DNA of 64,000 nt from Thalassospira australica. GTDB lineage: Bacteria; Pseudomonadota; Alphaproteobacteria; Rhodospirillales; Thalassospiraceae. The notes beneath the pieces were generated by a model, which worked only from the letters and a program-made list of their open reading frames with translations, ran no database searches and was not told the DNA's origin. How positions within the stretch are numbered: position 1 is the first letter of the stretch; each line of letters opens with the position of its first letter. The translations under genes and the position numbers were made by a program. Positions 1,201-48,626 of the stretch are shown here, one piece after another. Location: NCBI RefSeq assembly GCF_000763295.1, contig NZ_JRJE01000008.1, forward strand, positions 62,001 through 126,000, read 5' to 3'.

Positions 1201-2499
1201 ATGACCCATACCCCACCTGAAATCGCCTATGGTCGTGGCTTCATCTCCTTGAGCCTGCCTGAAAATGCCCGCACAACGGTTATTCGCAAGGCAGAGCTCG
1301 CCAAACTTCCAGACAATCACGCAGCCATTCGCAACGCACTTGAAAATCCGGTGGAGGCCGCCCCGCTGTCGGAACTCGCCAAAAACCGCAAAAGCGCGTG
1401 CATCCTGATCTGCGATATTACCCGGCCGGTCCCAAACAAACTTTTCTTGCGCCCGATGATCGAAACCATGCTGGCAGCAGGAATTCCACAAAGCGAAATC
1501 ACGGTACTGGTCGCCACCGGCCTTCACCGCCCCAATCTGGGCGAAGAACTTGATGAATTGCTGGGTGACCCGTGGGTTTTGGAAAACGTGCGGGTCGAAA
1601 ACCATTATGCCCGCAATGAAGATGACTTGGTTGATCTTGGATCAACTCCGACCCGTGATGTTCCGGTTAAGCTGAACAAGTATTTGGTGAATGCCGATCT
1701 CAGGATCGCCACCGGGTTGGTGGAACCCCACTTCATGGCCGGTTGGTCCGGCGGTCGCAAGGTGGTTGCCCCCGGTGTTGCCGGTCACGAAACAATCCGG
1801 ACATTCCATTCTGCACGCTTCATGGAAGATCCCCTTGCTGTGCAGTGTAACCTTGCGGGAAATCCTCTTCACGAAGAGCAACTCGAAATCGTCCGCAAGC
1901 TGGGCGAGATTTATGCGCTTAACACCGTTCTGGATGAAGACCGCGACCTTGTTCACGTTACATTTGGTGAAATCATCGCCAGCCACCTTGCTGCGGTCAG
2001 CTACATTTCCGAAGCAACCCGTGTCGATGTCGGGCGGAAATACAGCACAGTCGTGACATCATCGGCCGGCTATCCGCTTGATAAAACCTATTATCAGACC
2101 GTCAAAGGGATGGTCACCCCAATGGATATCCTCAAACCCGGCGGCACGCTGATCATTGCATCGGAATGTTCCGAAGGGTTTGGGTCCGAAGAATTCCGCA
2201 ATGCCCAGGCACGCCTTGCCGACCTTGGGTCGGAACGTTTTCTTGCCACGCTTAAGGCGAAAACACTTGCCGATATCGACGAATGGCAAACTGAAATGCA
2301 GCTTAAACCGATGCGTGTCGGCAAGGTACAGCTTTATACCAACGGGCTGGACCCAGAGGAAAAGCGCATCACCTGTGTTGAGGTAATTGATGACCTTGAT
2401 CAGGCAATTGCACAAAGCATCGCACAAAGCGGCGATATGGACGTGGCCATCATTCCCGAAGGCCCCTATGTCATCCCGGTGTCGGGCCCCAATGAATGA
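1201..2499 (+). CDS. larA: Nickel-pincer-dependent 2-hydroxyacid racemase/epimerase, LarA family
   Basis: 432 residues, close to the 424 of Lactobacillus plantarum lactate racemase. Expected LarA landmarks are present: DITRP near residue 72 (substrate-binding Arg75), GLHRPN with His109, His177, the GWSGGRK segment with Lys187 as the expected covalent attachment site of the nickel-pincer cofactor, and His203 in TFHS as the expected nickel ligand. The family interconverts the C2 stereochemistry of 2-hydroxyacids (lactate, malate, gluconate and others), so lactate cannot be assumed. The gene overlaps larC by 4 bp and follows a glycerate kinase, in an island that also encodes D-apiose catabolism. 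Glycerate or apionate are reasonable candidate substrates. Confidence 0.9.
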   Translation: MTHTPPEIAYGRGFISLSLPENARTTVIRKAELAKLPDNHAAIRNALENPVEAAPLSELAKNRKSACILICDITRPVPNKLFLRPMIETMLAAGIPQSEITVLVATGLHRPNLGEELDELLGDPWVLENVRVENHYARNEDDLVDLGSTPTRDVPVKLNKYLVNADLRIATGLVEPHFMAGWSGGRKVVAPGVAGHETIRTFHSARFMEDPLAVQCNLAGNPLHEEQLEIVRKLGEIYALNTVLDEDRDLVHVTFGEIIASHLAAVSYISEATRVDVGRKYSTVVTSSAGYPLDKTYYQTVKGMVTPMDILKPGGTLIIASECSEGFGSEEFRNAQARLADLGSERFLATLKAKTLADIDEWQTEMQLKPMRVGKVQLYTNGLDPEEKRITCVEVIDDLDQAIAQSIAQSGDMDVAIIPEGPYVIPVSGPNE

Positions 2500-3719
2500 A
2501 CCATATTCATCTTGATGCTGTCGGTGGTATTGCCGGTGATATGTTTATTGCCGCGATGCTTGATATGCTTCCGCATCTGCACCCCCGTATAGAACAGGAC
2601 ATCAAACGTATATTGCCATCGGATGTCGGTACTGTTGAAATCACCGAAATTCGCAAGAATGGGATGCATGCCCGAACCTTTAATTTGGTTCCCAACCCGT
2701 CCTCCGGGCAAGATCGTCGATCACATCACGATATACCCGACAAGCACCCCATTGGGTCCGGGGCATTTGGCGATATTCTTTCCTTTATCCGGTCTTCCCA
2801 AGTCGCACCGGAAACGATCGAGGTTGCCTGCGCCATCTTGACCCTGTTGGCAGAGGCCGAAGCCAAAACCCATGCTGTTGATATCAAGGATGTGCATTTC
2901 CACGAAATTGCCGATTGGGATTCTGTCCTTGATGTGGTGATTGCCGGCAGCATTATCGCGGCCTTGCCGAATTGCCATTGGACTGTCTCTGATTTGCCAC
3001 GCGGGGGTGGATTGATCAAAACCCAACACGGGTTGCTACCGGCCCCTGCCCCGGCAACGGTCGAGCTTCTGACAGGTTTTAACTGGCGCGACGATGGTGT
3101 TTCAGGCGAACGTGTGACCCCAACCGGCGCGGCTATCCTGAAATACCTGATTGATCCCTCAGCACCTGATGCGTCCACGGGAAAATCCGAACATTTGTGT
3201 GCCAGCGGAACTGGCGCAGGCACACGCAATATTCCCGAGTTGCCTAATATTTTGCGTGCGTTGCAATTCTCGTCGATCACCACAAACAACGACCCCGGCC
3301 ACGATCAGGACCATGTCACGGTTATAGAATTTGAAATCGATGATATGACCGGCGAAGAAATTGCGACTGCAACAGAAATGCTGCGCAAAAGCGATGGGGT
3401 TATTGATTTGGTCCTGTTTGCCGGACAGGGTAAGAAAAATCGCCAGACGACTGCTTTTCGGTTGCTTGCCAAAACCAATCTCGCCGATCAGATCATGGAT
3501 GAATGCTTCGCGCAAACATCGACGATCGGGCTGCGTCATCATGTTAGTGAACGCCGCATTCTGCCGCGCTCAGAAAACCTTGATGAAACCGGCATACAGG
3601 TCAAACATGCGACACGGCCCGGCGGCGTCATTTCGACAAAGGCCGAGCATGACGATATCGTGGGGCAGAATCTTCAAACCCGTCGCCAACAAAAATACCG
3701 CGCCGAATTCAAGGGCTAA
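2496..3719 (+). CDS. larC: Nickel insertion protein for the LarA pincer cofactor
   Basis: 407 residues beginning HIHLDAVGGIAGDMF, the conserved LarC start, with a histidine-containing middle (VHFHEIADWDSVLDVV) typical of this CTP-dependent nickel insertase. LarC performs the last step of nickel-pincer nucleotide synthesis, cyclometallating the organic cofactor with nickel. In L. plantarum larC is read through a programmed frameshift; here it is one uninterrupted frame. The ATG overlaps the larA stop (ATGA), showing translational coupling. The gene is followed after 2 bp by larE. Confidence 0.92.
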   Translation: MNHIHLDAVGGIAGDMFIAAMLDMLPHLHPRIEQDIKRILPSDVGTVEITEIRKNGMHARTFNLVPNPSSGQDRRSHHDIPDKHPIGSGAFGDILSFIRSSQVAPETIEVACAILTLLAEAEAKTHAVDIKDVHFHEIADWDSVLDVVIAGSIIAALPNCHWTVSDLPRGGGLIKTQHGLLPAPAPATVELLTGFNWRDDGVSGERVTPTGAAILKYLIDPSAPDASTGKSEHLCASGTGAGTRNIPELPNILRALQFSSITTNNDPGHDQDHVTVIEFEIDDMTGEEIATATEMLRKSDGVIDLVLFAGQGKKNRQTTAFRLLAKTNLADQIMDECFAQTSTIGLRHHVSERRILPRSENLDETGIQVKHATRPGGVISTKAEHDDIVGQNLQTRRQQKYRAEFKG

Positions 3720-43119: not shown

Positions 43120-43338
43120 CTAGGCTCAGGACCTATTAATTTGGTTTGAATGGTTCACCGGGTTTTTGCGACAAAGTAGCCCGTGCAAACCCGGTGAATC
43201 CGAAGGACAGACGTTATGTTTGCAAACTCTGGCGTCAGATCCCTTGGCCGGGATACCAGCCCGCCCGGCAGGTCTTTCCTTGGACTTCACAAATATAACG
43301 TCTGCCATTCCAATCAAATTAATAGGTCCTGAGCCTAG
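43120..43338. mobile_element. MITE-like palindromic element, copy 1
   Basis: 219 bp bounded by a perfect 24-bp inverted repeat (43120-43143 and 43315-43338, beginning CTAGGCTCAGGACC). Inside, 15-nt arms at 43208-43222 and 43290-43304 pair again. A second 12-bp hairpin (TTCACCGGGTTT, 43154-43198) is present only in this copy. The central block with TTGGCCGGGATACC and GCCCGCCCGGC is shared with the copy at 56063. No reading frame is convincing. CTAG at both ends recalls IS5-type targets. It interrupts the region after the LysR gene. Confidence 0.75.
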
Positions 43339-43380
43339 ATACACCAACAGCCCGGTTTTTTTTCCGGGCTGTTGGTGTAT
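43339..43380. repeat. Palindrome with eight-T loop
   Basis: ATACACCAACAGCCCGG and CCGGGCTGTTGGTGTAT form a perfect 17-bp stem around TTTTTTTT, directly abutting the MITE-like element. There is no T-run after the stem, so it is not an ordinary terminator. It may be a LysR-gene terminator rearranged by the neighbouring insertion. Confidence 0.6.
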
Positions 43381-43649
43381 CTGGTAGCTGCATAATAAAG
43401 GCGCCCGAATCAATCTTCTTGTGCCGCGCCACTCTCCTGAACACGCCATGACGGCGTCGTTACGCCTCGCTTAAACAGGCATCTCACCTGTTCTAATTCA
43501 ATCATTGCGCCGCAACATCTTCAAATTACTGACATTTTGTTGTCATGCGTATAGCGCATGGTTGATTTGCCAATTTTCAATTTTTAATCCACCAAAGCCC
43601 TACTTATATTTGCATCATAAGTTGTGAGCGGCCGCAAAAAGCGAGATCG

Positions 43650-43795
43650 CATCAACTGTCCCTGAAGATCGTATGATCCGTCCGCCGAAACGAAATTCGG
43701 CACGGGAGTCTCCCCTAGACTCCCTACGTCTCCCAGACGTAAAGCCTCCCTGTTGATCTTGCCGGTAGCACCCCCCTGCTACCGGCATTTTTTTT
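43650..43795 (+). ncRNA. Predicted small RNA 1, AbcR (alpha-r15)-like; boundaries approximate
   Basis: No reading frame. Successive hairpins: GCCGAA/TTCGGC (43684-43701), GGGAGTCT-CCCCT-AGACTCCC (43704-43724), TACGTCT-CCC-AGACGTA (43725-43741), the single-stranded AAGCCTCCCTG, then the intrinsic terminator GCCGGTAGC/GCTACCGGC with eight T ending at 43795. CUCCC exposed in loops can pair with Shine-Dalgarno sequences. The 3' half is nearly identical to RNA 2 downstream. A tandem pair near a trxB-linked LysR gene resembles the AbcR1/AbcR2 organisation that represses ABC-transporter mRNAs. The 5' end is not defined; the upstream 43381-43640 is AT-rich with no gene. Confidence 0.7.
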
Positions 43796-43984
43796 GCTCC
43801 CGCACAATAGGTTTGACATCAATATGCAACCTTCATCGGATATTAGATCCCCTTTATGTAAATTTATTATTTATTTTCAATAATTTAGATAGATACATAA
43901 GGCTTTTCTATATTTATGCAGAAAATGCATGGCTGAAAAAGCAATTTGGCAGTGGTCATTATCGTCAAAAACGCTATCTTCCTT

Positions 43985-44163
43985 CTCGAACCGCAGCGGT
44001 ACACACCGCACCGCGGTAACGAGTTTTCTCCCTGACCGAATTTTTCGGTCTTAGCCGGACGCCTAGTCCGGCTTACCCAGGGCCCTGAGAAGGGTCCTAC
44101 GTCTCCCAGACGTGAAGCCTCCCTGATAAACTTGCCGGGCATTCGTTGCCCGGCTTTTTTTTG
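43985..44163 (+). ncRNA. Predicted small RNA 2, tandem paralogue of RNA 1; boundaries approximate
   Basis: Hairpins GACCGAA/TTCGGTC, GCCGGAC/GTCCGGC and GGGCCCT/AGGGTCC lead into ACGTCT-CCC-AGACGT and GAAGCCTCCCTGATAAACTTG, matching RNA 1 over about 40 nt, then the terminator GCCGGGCA-ATTCGT-TGCCCGGC-type stem (from 44134) with eight T. The 43796-43980 spacer is AT-rich and contains TTGACA at 43813, giving room for an independent promoter. Divergent 5' halves with a conserved seed and terminator are what paralogous regulatory RNAs look like. Confidence 0.7.
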
Positions 44164-44342
44164 CTTTTTTCATATGCCCGCCTACCAGGCCAAAAGCACG
44201 CAAATTGCACGCAGCCGTGATCACGCGTCACCGCATCTCGACTTGGCAACAGGCCGGGAAGATTACACTATGGTGATGACGATACTGTCTGGGCACAGGA
44301 CCATACCTTCAAAGCCATCAGCATGAATGGAACCACGGCACC

Positions 44343-45710
44343 ATGAAAAGCACGCTTAGTGCCTTCCTGTTTGGCAAAGACGCCGACAATCATTTGCCAG
44401 AACGCGTCCAAAGCGCCATCGAAAAGCAGCAATATGAAAGCGAAAAGCTGATCGGCTGGGTTCAGCTTCTTCTGGTGACAATCTTTGCAACGCTTTATGC
44501 CATCTCGCCAAGCACATCGATGTCAGATGGTTTCCATCCTGTGCCCTGGGCGCTGGGGTTGTATTATCTGTTCACGCTCAAACGTCTTGCTCTGGCCTAT
44601 CGCAACGCGCTCAGCAGTTGGTTCCTGACCCTGTCAGTCATTGCCGATATTGGTCTGTTGATGGTCCTGATCTGGAGCTTCCACATCCAGTACATGCAGC
44701 CCGCAAGTTTCTATCTCAAGGCGCCGACGGTCCTTTACGTCTTTATCTTCATCTCCCTGCGCAGCCTGCGCTTTGATCCACGTTATATTCTGATCGCCGG
44801 GGGCACCGCCGCCGCGGGTTGGATCGTCCTGACCGGCTATGTCATCTGGAACGAGGGCGGCACAGACATGATCACCCGTGATTATGTGACCTATATGACC
44901 TCAAACGCCCTTTTGATCGGGGCCGAAATCGATAAAATCATCGCCATTGTGCTGGTTACCGCCGTCCTTGCCATCGGGGTGATGCGCGCCAAGCGCTCCT
45001 TTATCCGGGCTGTTACCGATGAAATTGCCGCGCGCGATCTGTCACGCTTTGTTTCGCCTGAAATCGCCGACCGCATCACCCATGCCGATCAACAGATCAA
45101 ACCGGGCGAAGGGGAAGCCGTCAAAGCCACCGTGATGTTTACCGACATCGAAGGTTTTTCCTCCATTTCCGAAAAACTGGCACCAAAAGAACTCGCAACG
45201 ATGCTCAACGAGTATTTCACTGAAACCAGTGCCGTGATTTCCCGCTATGGCGGGGTTATCACCCAGTTCGAGGGTGATGCCATGCTGATCACCTTCAATG
45301 CGGTTACGCCGGACCCGGATCACGCGCTCAATGCTGTGCGGACAGCCCTTACCATTCAGGAAATCTCGCAAAGGAGGATTTACAGTTTTGGCGACAAGCT
45401 CAAAACCCGGTGCGGGCTTAATACAGGTGAAATTGTCATTGGCGCAATTGGCTCTGAAAGCCGCCTGACCTTTACGGTGCATGGCGATAACGTCAATATC
45501 GCCTCGCGTCTGGAAACGCTGAACAAGGAATTTGGCACCTACATCCTTGCGACCGAGGACACCGTCGCAGCCTGCGGCAATCATGACGATATCCCCCAAT
45601 GGACCTCGCGCAAGGACGTCACCGTCCGTGGCCGCGAACAACCAACCCGTATTTTCAGCATCACCCCAACGAAAACCACCCTGCCGAGAACCGGGTCTGC
45701 GGCGCAGTAG
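44343..45710 (+). CDS. Membrane-bound class III adenylate/guanylate cyclase
   Basis: 455 residues. Six hydrophobic helices between about residues 38 and 220 form an N-terminal membrane sensor. The C-terminal catalytic domain (about 255-440) has VMFTDIEGFSSISEKL with the first metal Asp, FEGDAMLITF with the second, and VNIASRLETLNKEFG supplying the transition-state Asn and Arg. It should make cAMP (or cGMP) at the inner membrane. The gene is flanked by two pairs of predicted small RNAs. No strong ribosome site precedes the ATG at 44343. Confidence 0.9.
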   Translation: MKSTLSAFLFGKDADNHLPERVQSAIEKQQYESEKLIGWVQLLLVTIFATLYAISPSTSMSDGFHPVPWALGLYYLFTLKRLALAYRNALSSWFLTLSVIADIGLLMVLIWSFHIQYMQPASFYLKAPTVLYVFIFISLRSLRFDPRYILIAGGTAAAGWIVLTGYVIWNEGGTDMITRDYVTYMTSNALLIGAEIDKIIAIVLVTAVLAIGVMRAKRSFIRAVTDEIAARDLSRFVSPEIADRITHADQQIKPGEGEAVKATVMFTDIEGFSSISEKLAPKELATMLNEYFTETSAVISRYGGVITQFEGDAMLITFNAVTPDPDHALNAVRTALTIQEISQRRIYSFGDKLKTRCGLNTGEIVIGAIGSESRLTFTVHGDNVNIASRLETLNKEFGTYILATEDTVAACGNHDDIPQWTSRKDVTVRGREQPTRIFSITPTKTTLPRTGSAAQ

Positions 45711-45766
45711 GAACTCTCACAAAGCGTGGGCCAATCGGCAAACGTAGTGCTGATAGAAAGCATGCG

Positions 45767-45935
45767 AAAAAATAAAAGCCCGGGGAGCAAGAAGCTCGCC
45801 CGGGCTTTGGGGGACAGATGGTCTTGGGGAGACCAGCCAGATGCGCTGCCTTGCCCGTGGGGTTCAAACGCTTGGGGAGGAAGCGTTCTTTCGGGCCTCG
45901 ATGCGTCGTGAGGGAGTGCACGGCATCGATGTTTT
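45767..45935 (-). ncRNA. Predicted small RNA 4 (minus strand); boundaries approximate
   Basis: Read on the minus strand: a stem CGATGC/GCATCG enclosing a CACUCCCU loop (45899-45928), CGCTT-CCTCCCC-AAGCG (45869-45885), TGGTCT-CCCCA-AGACCA (45819-45835), then a terminator with AAAGCCCGGG/CCCGGGCTTT (45775-45808) followed by TTTTATTTTTT. Three C-rich loops face outward. The 17-nt third hairpin is identical to that of the RNA at 46084. There is no convincing reading frame in 45711-46562 on either strand. Confidence 0.65.
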
Positions 45936-46083
45936 CGCATCCGACAGTTAGGAATATGCCCTTGAAATACGGCTCAAAAATCGGTGTTTGATGACCATTT
46001 TCGGGCAGATTGCGGCAATAAAGGCAACATGCATTAAGGCATAGGGCATATAATGCGGCGCTGTACTGCGCCGAAAACCGGGC

Positions 46084-46240
46084 AAAAAAAAGGGGCGGGA
46101 TAAACCCGCCCCAGATATTCGGGGTCATTCATGGTCTTGGGGAGACCACGTCAGCCGGGGCATTTCAGGTGGGGGAACAACCTGAAAACACTCGGATCAA
46201 CATCGTGAGGGGGGACAAAGATTGTTGACCACGTCCTCGA
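46084..46240 (-). ncRNA. Predicted small RNA 3 (minus strand), tandem paralogue of RNA 4; boundaries approximate
   Basis: On the minus strand: CGTG/CACG enclosing a GUCCCCCCU loop (46204-46233), TTTCAGGT-TGTTCCCCC-ACCTGAAA (46163-46187), TGGTCT-CCCCA-AGACCA (46132-46148), then the terminator GGGGCGGG-TTTAT-CCCGCCCC (46092-46112) with eight T. The order of three C-loop hairpins plus terminator matches RNA 4, so the two are probably duplicates. Beyond about 46250 the sequence to 46562 shows nothing I can name; promoters for both directions are expected there. Confidence 0.65.
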
Positions 46241-46562
46241 CTGACAGGTGTGAATGTGCCTTTGAATCAAGGCGGGAAAACAGGTCACATAGGGCCATTT
46301 CGGGGCGAATTGTGTTTCAATAAAGGCAGATCGCATCCAATCCCTTGATTTCATTAACCCCGATCATGATCTAATCAAGGGTGCATCGGCAATCGGGCAG
46401 GTCTGATCTAGCACCCTGTCGGAAAACAATCTGAACACAGGCTGACGCACACCATATGACGACGACCCCGCCGATATCTTGGGGGATATCCCGTACGTCC
46501 GGGGGTTTTGTTTGTGCCGACCGATGGCTGGGGGATCGGTCTTGCTCGTCAAGGAGATGCCA

Positions 46563-48626
46563 ATGCCCACAAGTGCGCGCGCGACATCAACACCCACAAC
46601 GTCACACTCACCTCGGGTTGCCGCCCTGATTGGCCCGTATTCCAGCGGCAAAACATCCCTGCTTGAAAGCCTGCTTCTGGCAACAGGTGGCCTTCACCGC
46701 AAGGGATCTGTGCGTGATCATAATACGGTTGGGGATGCCAGTGCAGAATCCCGATCGCGGAACATGAGCACCGAACTCACCTGTGCGCGAACAACCTATC
46801 TCGGCGAAGAATGGCATTTCATTGATTGTCCGGGATCTGTCGATTTTGCCCAGGATGCCCGCGAAGCAGCAATGGTCTGTGACGTTGCAATCGTCGTTGT
46901 CGACCCGGACCCAAGCCGGGTGATGACTGTGGCACCGATCCTTAAGTTTCTTGATCGCAACCGCGTTCCCCACCTGATTTTCATTAACAAGACCGACCAT
47001 GCCAGTGTGCGTTTACGCATCTGTCTTGATGCGTTGCAGGCCATTTCCGAACGCCCGCTTGTGATGCGGGAAATTCCCATTCGGGCTTCCAAAGACACAG
47101 AAGAGCACATCACGGGCTTTGTCGATATCGTGTCCGAACGCGCCTATGCCTATCTCGAAGGACAGCCATCCCAACTCACCGCCTTGCCATCCAGCGCCAA
47201 AAACCGTGAGGCCGAGGCACGCGAAGGGTTGCTTGAAACACTGGCCGACTTTGATGACGCCCTGCTTGAACAGATCCTTGAAGATCAGGAACCGGCCGCC
47301 GAAACCATCTATGCCAACCTTGAACGGGATCTGGCCCGGGATCTGATTGTGCCGGTCTTTTTCGGATCGGCTGAACATGACCATGGCATTATCCGTTTGC
47401 TTAAGGCCCTGCGCCACGAAGCCCCGTCGTCAGACGTTTGTGCTCACCGACTGGGCATTGATCCCACCCCGGATCAAAACATCGTACAGGTTTTCAAAAC
47501 CGTTCATCTTTCCCATGCCGGGCGGTTTTGCTTTGCCCGCATTTTGTCTGGCAGCCTTTCCAATGGTGATACACTGGGCGCGGACAAGGTATCGGGGCTT
47601 TGCACGGTGTTTAGCGAAAAGCATGAAAAGCTTGATCACGGCACAACCGGGTCGATTGTTGGCCTGCCCCGGATGGAACATTTACGCACGGGCAGCCTTG
47701 TTAGTCCGGATGGGCTGCACGACAGTCTCTGGCCCGATCCCCTGCCCCCGCTGTATGAAATCGGGCTAGAGGTCACAAAACCCGGCGATGACGTCAAACT
47801 GACCGAAGCACTCCGTCATATCTGTGAACAGGACCGTTCTCTTGGCTTTGGTCACCATCCCGGCACCGGTCAACTGCTGCTGTCTGGTCAGGGCGACATT
47901 CATCTCCAATCGGCTTTGGCCCATTTGGCGACCCATTATCATCTTGAAATCACAAGCGTGCCGGTTTTGACCGGCTATCAGGAAACCGTCCGCAAACCGG
48001 CCACCGCACGGGGACGTTACAAAAAGCAGACCGGCGGGCATGGGCAATTTGGCGATGCCGAAATTGAAATTCGCCCGCTTGGACGTGGTGACGGATTTGA
48101 ATTCAGCGAACATATTGTCGGCGGGGCCATTCCCCGGCAATATATCCCTGCCGTTGAAAAGGGTGTGCGTGATGGCCTGCGGTCCGGGCCGCTTGGCTTT
48201 CCGGTAATGGATATTGCTGTCAAACTGGTGGATGGATCATTCCATACAGTGGACAGTTCTGATCAGGCCTTCCAAATGGCCGGACGTATTGCAATTGGCG
48301 AGGCGCTTAAAAACGCAGGTCCGACCCTGTTGGAACCCATCGACATTTGCAAGGTCTCCGTTCCATCGGACTTTACGTCAAAGGCACAACGTTTGGTCAG
48401 TGCGCGCCGGGGGCAAATCCTTGGCTTCAATGCCAAGGACGGCTGGCAAGGCTGGGACGAGATCGAGGTGCAAATTCCCACATCGGAAACCGTTGATATC
48501 GTGACCGAGCTGCGCTCTTTGTCGCAGGGCACCGGCTTTTTCACCCGCCATTATTCCCACATGCAGGAACTTGCGGGGAAACATGCCGACGCAGTTGTTA
48601 ACCAACATCGCGCATCCGGGAAATAA
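46563..48626 (+). CDS. Elongation factor G-like GTPase (EF-G2)
   Basis: 687 residues from the ATG at 46563, six bases after AAGGAG. G1 is ALIGPYSSGKTSLLES (non-canonical but with GKT), G3 is FIDCPGSVDF, G4 is FINKTD. Domains II to V of EF-G follow, including YQETVRKPATARGRYKKQTGGHGQFG and SFHTVDSSDQAFQMAG. This is the EF-G2 paralogue rather than the translocase FusA, and no ribosomal-protein genes are near. Its role may be in stress translation or ribosome recycling, which is not settled for the family. Confidence 0.88.
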   Translation: MPTSARATSTPTTSHSPRVAALIGPYSSGKTSLLESLLLATGGLHRKGSVRDHNTVGDASAESRSRNMSTELTCARTTYLGEEWHFIDCPGSVDFAQDAREAAMVCDVAIVVVDPDPSRVMTVAPILKFLDRNRVPHLIFINKTDHASVRLRICLDALQAISERPLVMREIPIRASKDTEEHITGFVDIVSERAYAYLEGQPSQLTALPSSAKNREAEAREGLLETLADFDDALLEQILEDQEPAAETIYANLERDLARDLIVPVFFGSAEHDHGIIRLLKALRHEAPSSDVCAHRLGIDPTPDQNIVQVFKTVHLSHAGRFCFARILSGSLSNGDTLGADKVSGLCTVFSEKHEKLDHGTTGSIVGLPRMEHLRTGSLVSPDGLHDSLWPDPLPPLYEIGLEVTKPGDDVKLTEALRHICEQDRSLGFGHHPGTGQLLLSGQGDIHLQSALAHLATHYHLEITSVPVLTGYQETVRKPATARGRYKKQTGGHGQFGDAEIEIRPLGRGDGFEFSEHIVGGAIPRQYIPAVEKGVRDGLRSGPLGFPVMDIAVKLVDGSFHTVDSSDQAFQMAGRIAIGEALKNAGPTLLEPIDICKVSVPSDFTSKAQRLVSARRGQILGFNAKDGWQGWDEIEVQIPTSETVDIVTELRSLSQGTGFFTRHYSHMQELAGKHADAVVNQHRASGK

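Follow-up and report, generated by a model that had tools for sequence, protein, structure and literature searches.

The intergenic region between an adenylate/guanylate cyclase gene and an EF-G-like gene of Thalassospira australica (RefSeq assembly GCF_000763295.1, contig NZ_JRJE01000008.1) harbors two consecutive RNA genes on its minus strand, termed unit A (46245-46084, 5' to 3') and unit B (45945-45767). All positions refer to the window, i.e., the 64,000-nucleotide stretch of this contig (positions 62,001 to 126,000) that was analyzed. By the tests made, these units most likely represent a genus-wide family of small RNAs (sRNAs) with cytosine-rich loops (C-loop sRNAs), characterized by folding into a junction, by one hairpin that is frozen and by tandem arrays with a fixed unit order, which would act like sX13, NfeR1 and LhrC and is not a member of those families. 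It is proposed that the units are probably separately transcribed, multi-site C-loop sRNAs which act on G-rich ribosome-binding sites.

Architecture and structural conservation of units A and B

Units A and B share a common architecture. The junction that contains hairpins H1 and H2 is closed by P1, a stem formed over a long range; H3 comes next, ahead of a C-rich linker and then the intrinsic terminator. Unit B harbors in addition an extra stem, P3, which encloses H2. A preliminary description, made from the letters of the DNA alone, had recognized a pair of minus-strand C-loop RNAs that were arranged alike, with three hairpins ahead of a terminator, and shared an identical 17-nt hairpin. The pair, the order (H1, H2, H3 and terminator in both units) and the hairpin (TGGTCTCCCCAAGACCA, at 45819-45835 and 46132-46148 of the minus strand) were recovered here, while P1, P3 and the distinction between types A and B had been missed. 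No third exact match to the 17-nt hairpin was found in the T. australica genome (two matches, as against none for the reversed control). The loops, formerly given as CCCC or CCUCCCC, are appropriately described for H2 and H3 and not for H1, whose C-rich loop is larger; they comprise a CCCCCCU region (H1), UGUUCCCCC (H2) and CCCCA (H3) in unit A, and CUCCCU, CCUCCCC and CCCCA, respectively, in unit B. Similarly, the proposed ends at approximately 45767 and 46084 coincide with the terminators, while both RNA starts were moved approximately 5 nt upstream (to 46245 and 45945) because P1, in which the 5' end pairs with the bases just before H3, had been overlooked. Folding of positions 45773-45912 and 46084-46232 was in each case better than that of all 200 dinucleotide shuffles (z = -3.1 and -4.2, respectively).

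The structure of unit B is supported by covariation. Fifteen type-B units, chosen from 32 non-redundant representatives of 41 distinct units, were aligned using MAFFT and assessed at 25 base pairs of P1, H1 and H3 (374 cells), P3 and H2 being left out of the count because the alignment misplaces them. Pairing was retained in 99.2% of these cells, compared to 23-42% where the partners were slid. Two-sided changes were evident at 11 of the 25 pairs (shuffles, 6.0 +/- 1.3; 0/500 as high) and in 33 cells (shuffles, 9.0), while the count of further pair types was less striking (25 versus 22.2; 37/500 shuffles). Minimum-energy folds of the 32 B units contained P1, H1 and H3 in every case; in 27 of them P3 was also formed, with H2 as a hairpin of its own. 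The arms of P3 vary jointly (GCCCG/CGGGC, GACCTT/AAGGTC, CTGCC/GGCAG, GCCTGC/GCAGGC and others), and those of H2 likewise change together across the folds of relatives. In an alignment of 74 model matches (68 distinct), which is itself fitted to the structure, 94.5% of cells pair (shuffles, 78.9), and the 68 distinct rows display two-sided changes at 19/25 pairs (shuffles, 15.0 +/- 1.4). Of the pairs counted in this structure-fitted alignment, four of the five in the H3 stem are invariant, and 19 of the 20 others exhibit two-sided changes.

The type-A assessment comprised 14 rows and 21 pairs of P1, H3 and the terminator, with H1 and H2 left out. Taken alone, type A was 95.6% paired (shuffles, 94.0; 0/500 as high), with a covariation score that was reached by 2/500 shuffles. 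The preliminary description had expected the stems to be maintained in relatives, an expectation borne out by type B, while type A by itself displays weak covariation. The structure of unit A is predicted mainly from its homology with unit B and from folding.

RNA strand, terminators and conserved upstream blocks

The minus strand is identified as the RNA strand because G-U cells outnumber A-C cells (90 versus 24 in the named structure across 74 rows) and because a hairpin followed by a U-tract is present after H3 in 76/77 units; a control stretch of 100 nt near the opposite end, on the other strand, contained a terminator in 2/77. This asymmetry and the terminators, together with the compensatory stems of B, presence in 29/29 genomes and the lack both of a widely kept open reading frame and of a gathering-score Rfam match at the array, uphold the original proposal of minus-strand small RNAs.

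Two conserved blocks precede the units (41 of type B and 22 of type A compared), namely AATTYGCCC-NN-AAATGGYC and a second block approximately 6 nt before P1, which ends in GGCATATTC in type B and in variants thereof in type A. Judging by their conservation, these blocks may represent a candidate promoter and regulator site. The pattern of the upstream element has 14 matches in the T. australica genome (reversed control, 4), two of which are exact and precede units A and B, the other 12 having two mismatches. The core promoter-like pattern, at up to three mismatches, has 12 matches (control, 1), among which that of unit B is the only one at the array.

Distribution and copy number within Thalassospira

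A nucleotide search with the region returned a match in 29/29 genomes of the family examined, all of which belong to the genus Thalassospira. Counted as occurrences of H3 with at most two substitutions, these 29 genomes contain 77 units (30 A and 47 B), at 2-7 per genome. The arrays are of the types AB (23 genomes), ABBBB (three), ABBBBB (one), ABBBBBB (one) and ABA (one); thus, 28/29 genomes possess one A plus 1-6 B, and the ABA case is a metagenome-assembled genome (MAG) whose units are spread over two contigs. Unit A leads every tandem array seen. Adjacent H3 copies are separated by 269-373 bp, except for three gaps of 503-546 bp, which lie between the third and fourth unit in loci L033, L035 and L038 and perhaps hold a decayed unit. 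The array of genome G009 is split (L033 and L034), four units being located by EF-G-like and Dps-like genes and the fifth approximately 42 kb away by LysR and cyclase genes, which suggests a rearrangement. Locus L038 (genome G019) also displays two adjacent cyclase-gene matches (656-1975 and 2396-3712).

H3 is exact, stem included, in 74/77 units. Model R2, built from 74 sequences including unit A, does not require an exact H3; at E <= 2e-9 its full matches within Thalassospira number 77, to which three partial matches in two MAGs are added. Since this count equals that based on H3, the constancy of H3 is not merely a product of the counting method. Weak R2 matches elsewhere were present in eight genomes of the genus (42-133 nt; E 0.006-0.063). 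Across the order, model R1, built from 15 type-B sequences only (unit B among them), matched 23/199 genomes, all Thalassospira, and R2 matched 29/29 genomes of the genus and 1/288 others, the latter through a weak, short match (E 0.003, 71 nt). Across the class, R2 matched 3/385 genomes, of which two are Thalassospira and the third (E 0.048) aligned poorly; the order- and class-wide model searches employed stricter filters, which diverged relatives may escape. A pattern scan of named genomes identified 25 stretches, of which 22 are from Thalassospira and one, containing both units, from a Rhodospirillales MAG. The remaining two were rejected as unrelated records with model scores of only 12-13 bits.

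Comparison with known RNA families

At the gathering score, Rfam yielded no match on the array of the window or on four relatives' loci, the whole window producing a single tRNA; at E <= 10, all other matches in the window were below gathering scores. This result agrees with the preliminary description, in which no RNA family could be named for the units.

Judged by their anatomy, the units would work like several known RNAs. The sX13 RNA of Xanthomonas is described as having three stems with C-rich apical loops (4C, 4C and 5C) and as recognizing G-rich motifs near translation starts (PMC3771888). Repression of mRNAs by way of such sites, independently of Hfq, is a trait of sX13. The Thalassospira units likewise present several stems with C-run apical loops and may work alike, while the P1-closed junction and the ordered A+B array differ from sX13 as there described. 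Membership of the sX13 family (RF02232) was rejected, as the gathering score is 50 bits and unit B reached only 19.8 (E 1.1). The Cuckoo/alpha-r14 RNAs (NfeR1; CcsR relatives) are alphaproteobacterial and, in the available accounts, combine three hairpins and an anti-Shine-Dalgarno loop motif with drifting stems (PMC10746234, PMC3927594). Origin, hairpin number and drifting stems are shared with the Thalassospira units, which differ from those accounts in possessing P1, P3 and the frozen H3. The Cuckoo loop motif CCUCCUCCC is present in 0/77 units, which were thus not assigned to this group, and a DUF1127 gene, a trait of the Cuckoo CIN1 locus, was not detected among the ten open reading frames (ORFs) between 43126 and 46651 (Pfam, E <= 1).

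The LhrC family has an Rfam model, and the lack of a gathering-score match in the window array or the four relatives' loci led to its rejection. In multiplicity the units do resemble LhrC, since both occur as homologous copies (2-7 units per genome in the 29 genomes) that each carry redundant C-rich sites (PMC4132741); the C-run terminator loops of extra B copies in some relatives are a further resemblance. LhrC1-5 belong to Listeria, of a different phylum, and have UCCC-type sites, and the description of LhrC, as far as available, includes no junction. SisA-D of Caulobacter, likened to the units by description alone, are homologous alphaproteobacterial sRNAs with a common anti-Shine-Dalgarno motif according to the accessible account (PMC12559287).

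Membership of the SorX/SorY/suhB (mmgR) group was also rejected, as unit A scored 20.0 bits against 41 for suhB and 19.4 against 111 for SorY, and SorX (Rfam, E <= 10) had no listed match on either unit. Sub-threshold matches to SorX (RF02784; 29.4 and 32.2 bits versus 46.6) and also to suhB/mmgR were displayed by a pair of plus-strand elements at 43690-43800 and 44020-44165, each composed of a short C-loop hairpin, CCUCCCUG and a terminator. Similar DNA is present in 15/17 loci compared, and the hairpin of this pair, GUCUCCC-AGAC, resembles H3.

No earlier description of this RNA family was found in the literature, the supplements of PMC6413936 lying outside that search. In the main text of that Thalassospira small-RNA paper, only 'tctcccc' and 'cccc' of six strings occur, in other sequences as far as shown.

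Proposed mode of action

We infer that the units act in trans, are transcribed separately and pair through their C-runs with G-rich ribosome-binding sites, the pairing mechanism being suggested by analogy with sX13 (PMC3771888), NfeR1 (PMC10746234), LhrC (PMC4132741) and SisA-D (PMC12559287) as described in the available accounts. Each unit would be its own gene of a single Thalassospira sRNA family, equipped with its own conserved putative promoter and its own terminator. The transcript is predicted to fold into a P1-closed junction, the arms of which display several C-runs, placed in loops or in unpaired joints; the near-invariant H3 and the C-rich linker come after it. These C-runs may serve as redundant anti-Shine-Dalgarno seeds for the G-rich ribosome-binding sites of several mRNAs, where pairing would block ribosome loading and thus reduce translation. 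Dose and sensitivity would be set by the several seeds per RNA and the 2-7 gene copies, as has been proposed for LhrC in the account available (PMC4132741).

The disposition of the C-runs is consistent with this proposal. In predicted folds of the 32 B units, CCC triplets were fully unpaired in 334/380 cases (88%), as against 755/1556 (49%) in shuffles, although C overall was not more unpaired (934/1710 versus 4974/8550). Three to seven C-rich single-stranded patches occur per B unit, and C-run terminator loops are present in some extra B copies of genomes G009, G010, G013, G017 and G019. The stems drift while the C-runs stay, as expected of redundant seeds, with the exception of H3, in which both stem and loop are frozen. 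H3 is, for this reason, assigned a possible added role: it may be bound by a protein, for example Hfq, or may serve as an extended pairing seed.

Several results weigh against the proposal. Loop-only pairing does not account for the invariance of four of the five H3 stem pairs. The target search was small and revealed no conserved target: the complement of H3, CTTGGGGAG, has 13 matches in the T. australica genome, all read with their context and three of them inside units (reversed control, 6), and the linker complement, GGGGACAGA, has 33, one of them in unit B (control, 4). The latter count is inflated because a repeat carries some of the sites; 5 of the 30 sites (of 33) that were read with their context contain GGGGACAGATTTATTT, and four more are like that repeat. 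Two candidate target genes, named by Pfam (CbiM and cytochrome c), were followed within the genus, and the exact sites before both were not retained at most of the aligned sites of relatives. A consensus sigma-70 scan detected no promoter ahead of either unit. Within type A, two-sided change was limited to 1/21 pairs (shuffles, 1.1), and one slid version outscored the true pairing (0.104 versus 0.090). The T. australica genome also contains a dispersed repeat that reads AAAAAGGGGACAGATTTATTTT (L154-L158, L162, L170, L180 and L181, near position 1501), sometimes as close pairs; we take it to resemble the repeats found near IS200-like transposases.

The constancy of H3 also favors a protein decoy, in which H3 and the C-runs would bind and titrate a sequence-specific RNA-binding protein and tandem copies would raise capacity, much as CsrB and RsmZ titrate CsrA. 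Such a role would suit a hairpin that is exact, stem included, in nearly all units while almost every counted pair elsewhere changes two-sidedly, as well as the several similar sites per RNA and the extra copies in some species. To our knowledge, however, no protein is known to bind such hairpins here, and the stems enclosing the other C-runs vary freely, as for base-pairing seeds. Decoys of the CsrB/RsmZ type are defined by repeated unpaired GGA motifs, the usual motif of CsrA; fully unpaired GGA was found in 0/37 instances in the 32 B units and 1/16 in 14 A units, which makes a CsrA decoy unlikely. Overall, we consider a protein decoy unlikely. A combined arrangement, in which H3 and the linker form a protein-binding module and not just a seed, the frozen hairpin GGUCUCCCCAAGACC is read by a dedicated RNA-binding protein of Thalassospira, the A+nB array serves this protein as a scaffold or decoy that copy number can tune, and the drifting C-loops are separate mRNA seeds, is speculative and unlikely; were it true, the array would apply the CsrB/RsmZ principle in a C-specific form.

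The multiple copies and the C-rich single-stranded patches of each B unit would equally suit an RNA sponge, for which CrfA offers a precedent, the C-runs capturing G-rich sRNAs or mRNA fragments with no direct regulation of mRNAs. We regard this as quite improbable, as no G-rich partner sRNA came to light, although no genome-wide search for one was made, and the adjacent plus-strand sRNA-like genes themselves have C-rich loops.

Genomic context and coding capacity

The units occupy the intergenic gap 45711-46562, which measures 852 bp provided that ATG 46563 is the start of the EF-G-like gene; this likely start follows AAGGAG within an ORF of 46479-48626. The neighbor at the lower coordinates is the cyclase gene (44343-45710), and both neighbors are located on the plus strand. 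Downstream of the LysR gene, positions 43120-43383 contain the inverted repeat TAGGCTCAGGACCTATTAATTTG ... CAAATTAATAGGTCCTGAGCCTA and, after it, a strong hairpin whose loop holds a T-tract. The features of the array are listed in Table 1.

Table 1. Features of the unit A and unit B array in window coordinates
Feature	Positions	Strand	Description	Evidence
Unit A	46084..46245	-	Predicted RNA of ~162 nt, first unit of array	Model R2, E 1.5e-10; R1, E 0.058
Unit A P1 5' arm	46238..46245	-	GUCAGUCG, pairs with 46150-46157	90.2% of cells paired, 14 type-A rows
Unit A P1 3' arm	46150..46157	-	CGGCUGAC	
Unit A H1	46195..46230	-	Loop with UGUCCCCCCUC	Outside covariation count
Unit A H2	46163..46187	-	Loop UGUUCCCCC	Outside covariation count
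Unit A H3	46132..46148	-	UGGUCUCCCCAAGACCA	Exact match, conservation
Unit A terminator	46084..46112	-	Intrinsic terminator and U-tract	
Unit A promoter-like block	46252..46279	-	Ends in GGCACATTC	Conservation alone
Unit A upstream element	46293..46311	-	Conserved, AATTCGCCCCGAAATGGCC	Conservation, pattern scan
Unit B	45767..45945	-	Predicted RNA of ~179 nt	Model R1, E 1.4e-30
Unit B P1 5' arm	45936..45945	-	GUCGGAUGCG, pairs with 45836-45845	Two-sided changes at 5/10 pairs
Unit B P1 3' arm	45836..45845	-	CGCAUCUGGC	Covariation
Unit B H1	45898..45929	-	Inner GUG/CAC stem, CUCCCU loop	Two-sided changes: outer pairs 5/7, inner 1/3
Unit B P3 5' arm	45892..45896	-	GCCCG, pairs with 45853-45857	Arms co-change across relatives' folds
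Unit B P3 3' arm	45853..45857	-	CGGGC	Arms co-change across relatives' folds
Unit B H2	45866..45888	-	Loop CCUCCCC	Relatives' folds
Unit B H3	45819..45835	-	UGGUCUCCCCAAGACCA	GGTCTCCCCAAGACC exact in 74/77 units
Unit B linker	45809..45818	-	Single-stranded, UCUGUCCCCC	
Unit B terminator	45767..45808	-	Intrinsic terminator and U-tract	
Unit B promoter-like block	45952..45979	-	TTTTGAGCC...GGGCATATTC	Conservation alone
Unit B upstream element	45993..46011	-	Conserved, AATCTGCCCGAAAATGGTC	Conservation, pattern scan

Among 20 loci compared, several of which are too short for all neighbors to show, matches to LysR (14), cyclase (17), EF-G-like (14) and Dps-like (16) genes were recorded. The cyclase, EF-G-like and Dps-like genes thus stand beside the array in most loci, as might be anticipated if it were a leader, an attenuator or a 3' structure acting in cis on an adjoining gene. 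Such a cis-acting element is nevertheless very improbable, given that both window neighbors lie on the opposite strand and nearly every unit has its own terminator. Moreover, the array does not belong to the EF-G-like gene as a mere appendage, because it persists in L036, L037, L050 and L052, where an EF-G-like match is missing from the locus; L034 and L043, which hold parts of a split array, likewise lack this match.

The preliminary description had also judged that nothing protein-coding fits the region of approximately 850 bp, and indeed no ORF there is widely kept and no Pfam cut-off was reached. Four overlapping ORFs (155, 119 and 67 amino acids on the minus strand and 61 amino acids on the plus strand) had a stop-free match over >=80% of the ORF in 0, 0, 5 and 2, respectively, of 28 relatives' loci, the 67-amino-acid ORF (46151-46354) being open in five nearer relatives and not in the other loci. 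None of the ten ORFs scanned between 43126 and 46651 attained a Pfam cut-off; a PR zinc knuckle match of one ORF (E 5.5e-4; 20.1 bits versus a cut-off of 25.8) was dismissed, and in none of 28 loci did that ORF have a match that ran without a stop across 80% of it. A coding gene is, therefore, an unlikely explanation of the array.

The tandem arrangement, the variable copy number and the overlapping ORFs, one of them open in those five loci, might be explained by a small coding gene or by a DNA-level repeat, such as a mobile or REP-like (repetitive extragenic palindromic) element, rather than by an RNA. This explanation is scarcely credible, being largely refuted by the covariation of B and contradicted by the strand-specific G-U pairs and terminators and by ORFs that are not kept in most relatives. 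Model R1 at E <= 1 located no copy in the T. australica genome beyond the array, and a mobile or plasmid element was discounted, no plasmid match having been found for the array.

Implications

The sRNA interpretation of units A and B defines a covariation-supported RNA family which, in the sequences scanned, is beyond the reach of Rfam models at the gathering score and which seems to add another independent example to the C-loop sRNAs that occur in multiple copies. Thalassospira offers natural experiments in this regard, with 2-7 copies within one genus, two unit types in a fixed order, and one frozen hairpin set against drifting counted stems. This last opposition, between the frozen H3 and the drifting stems, makes the parts that would serve as seeds distinguishable by test from those that may bind a protein.
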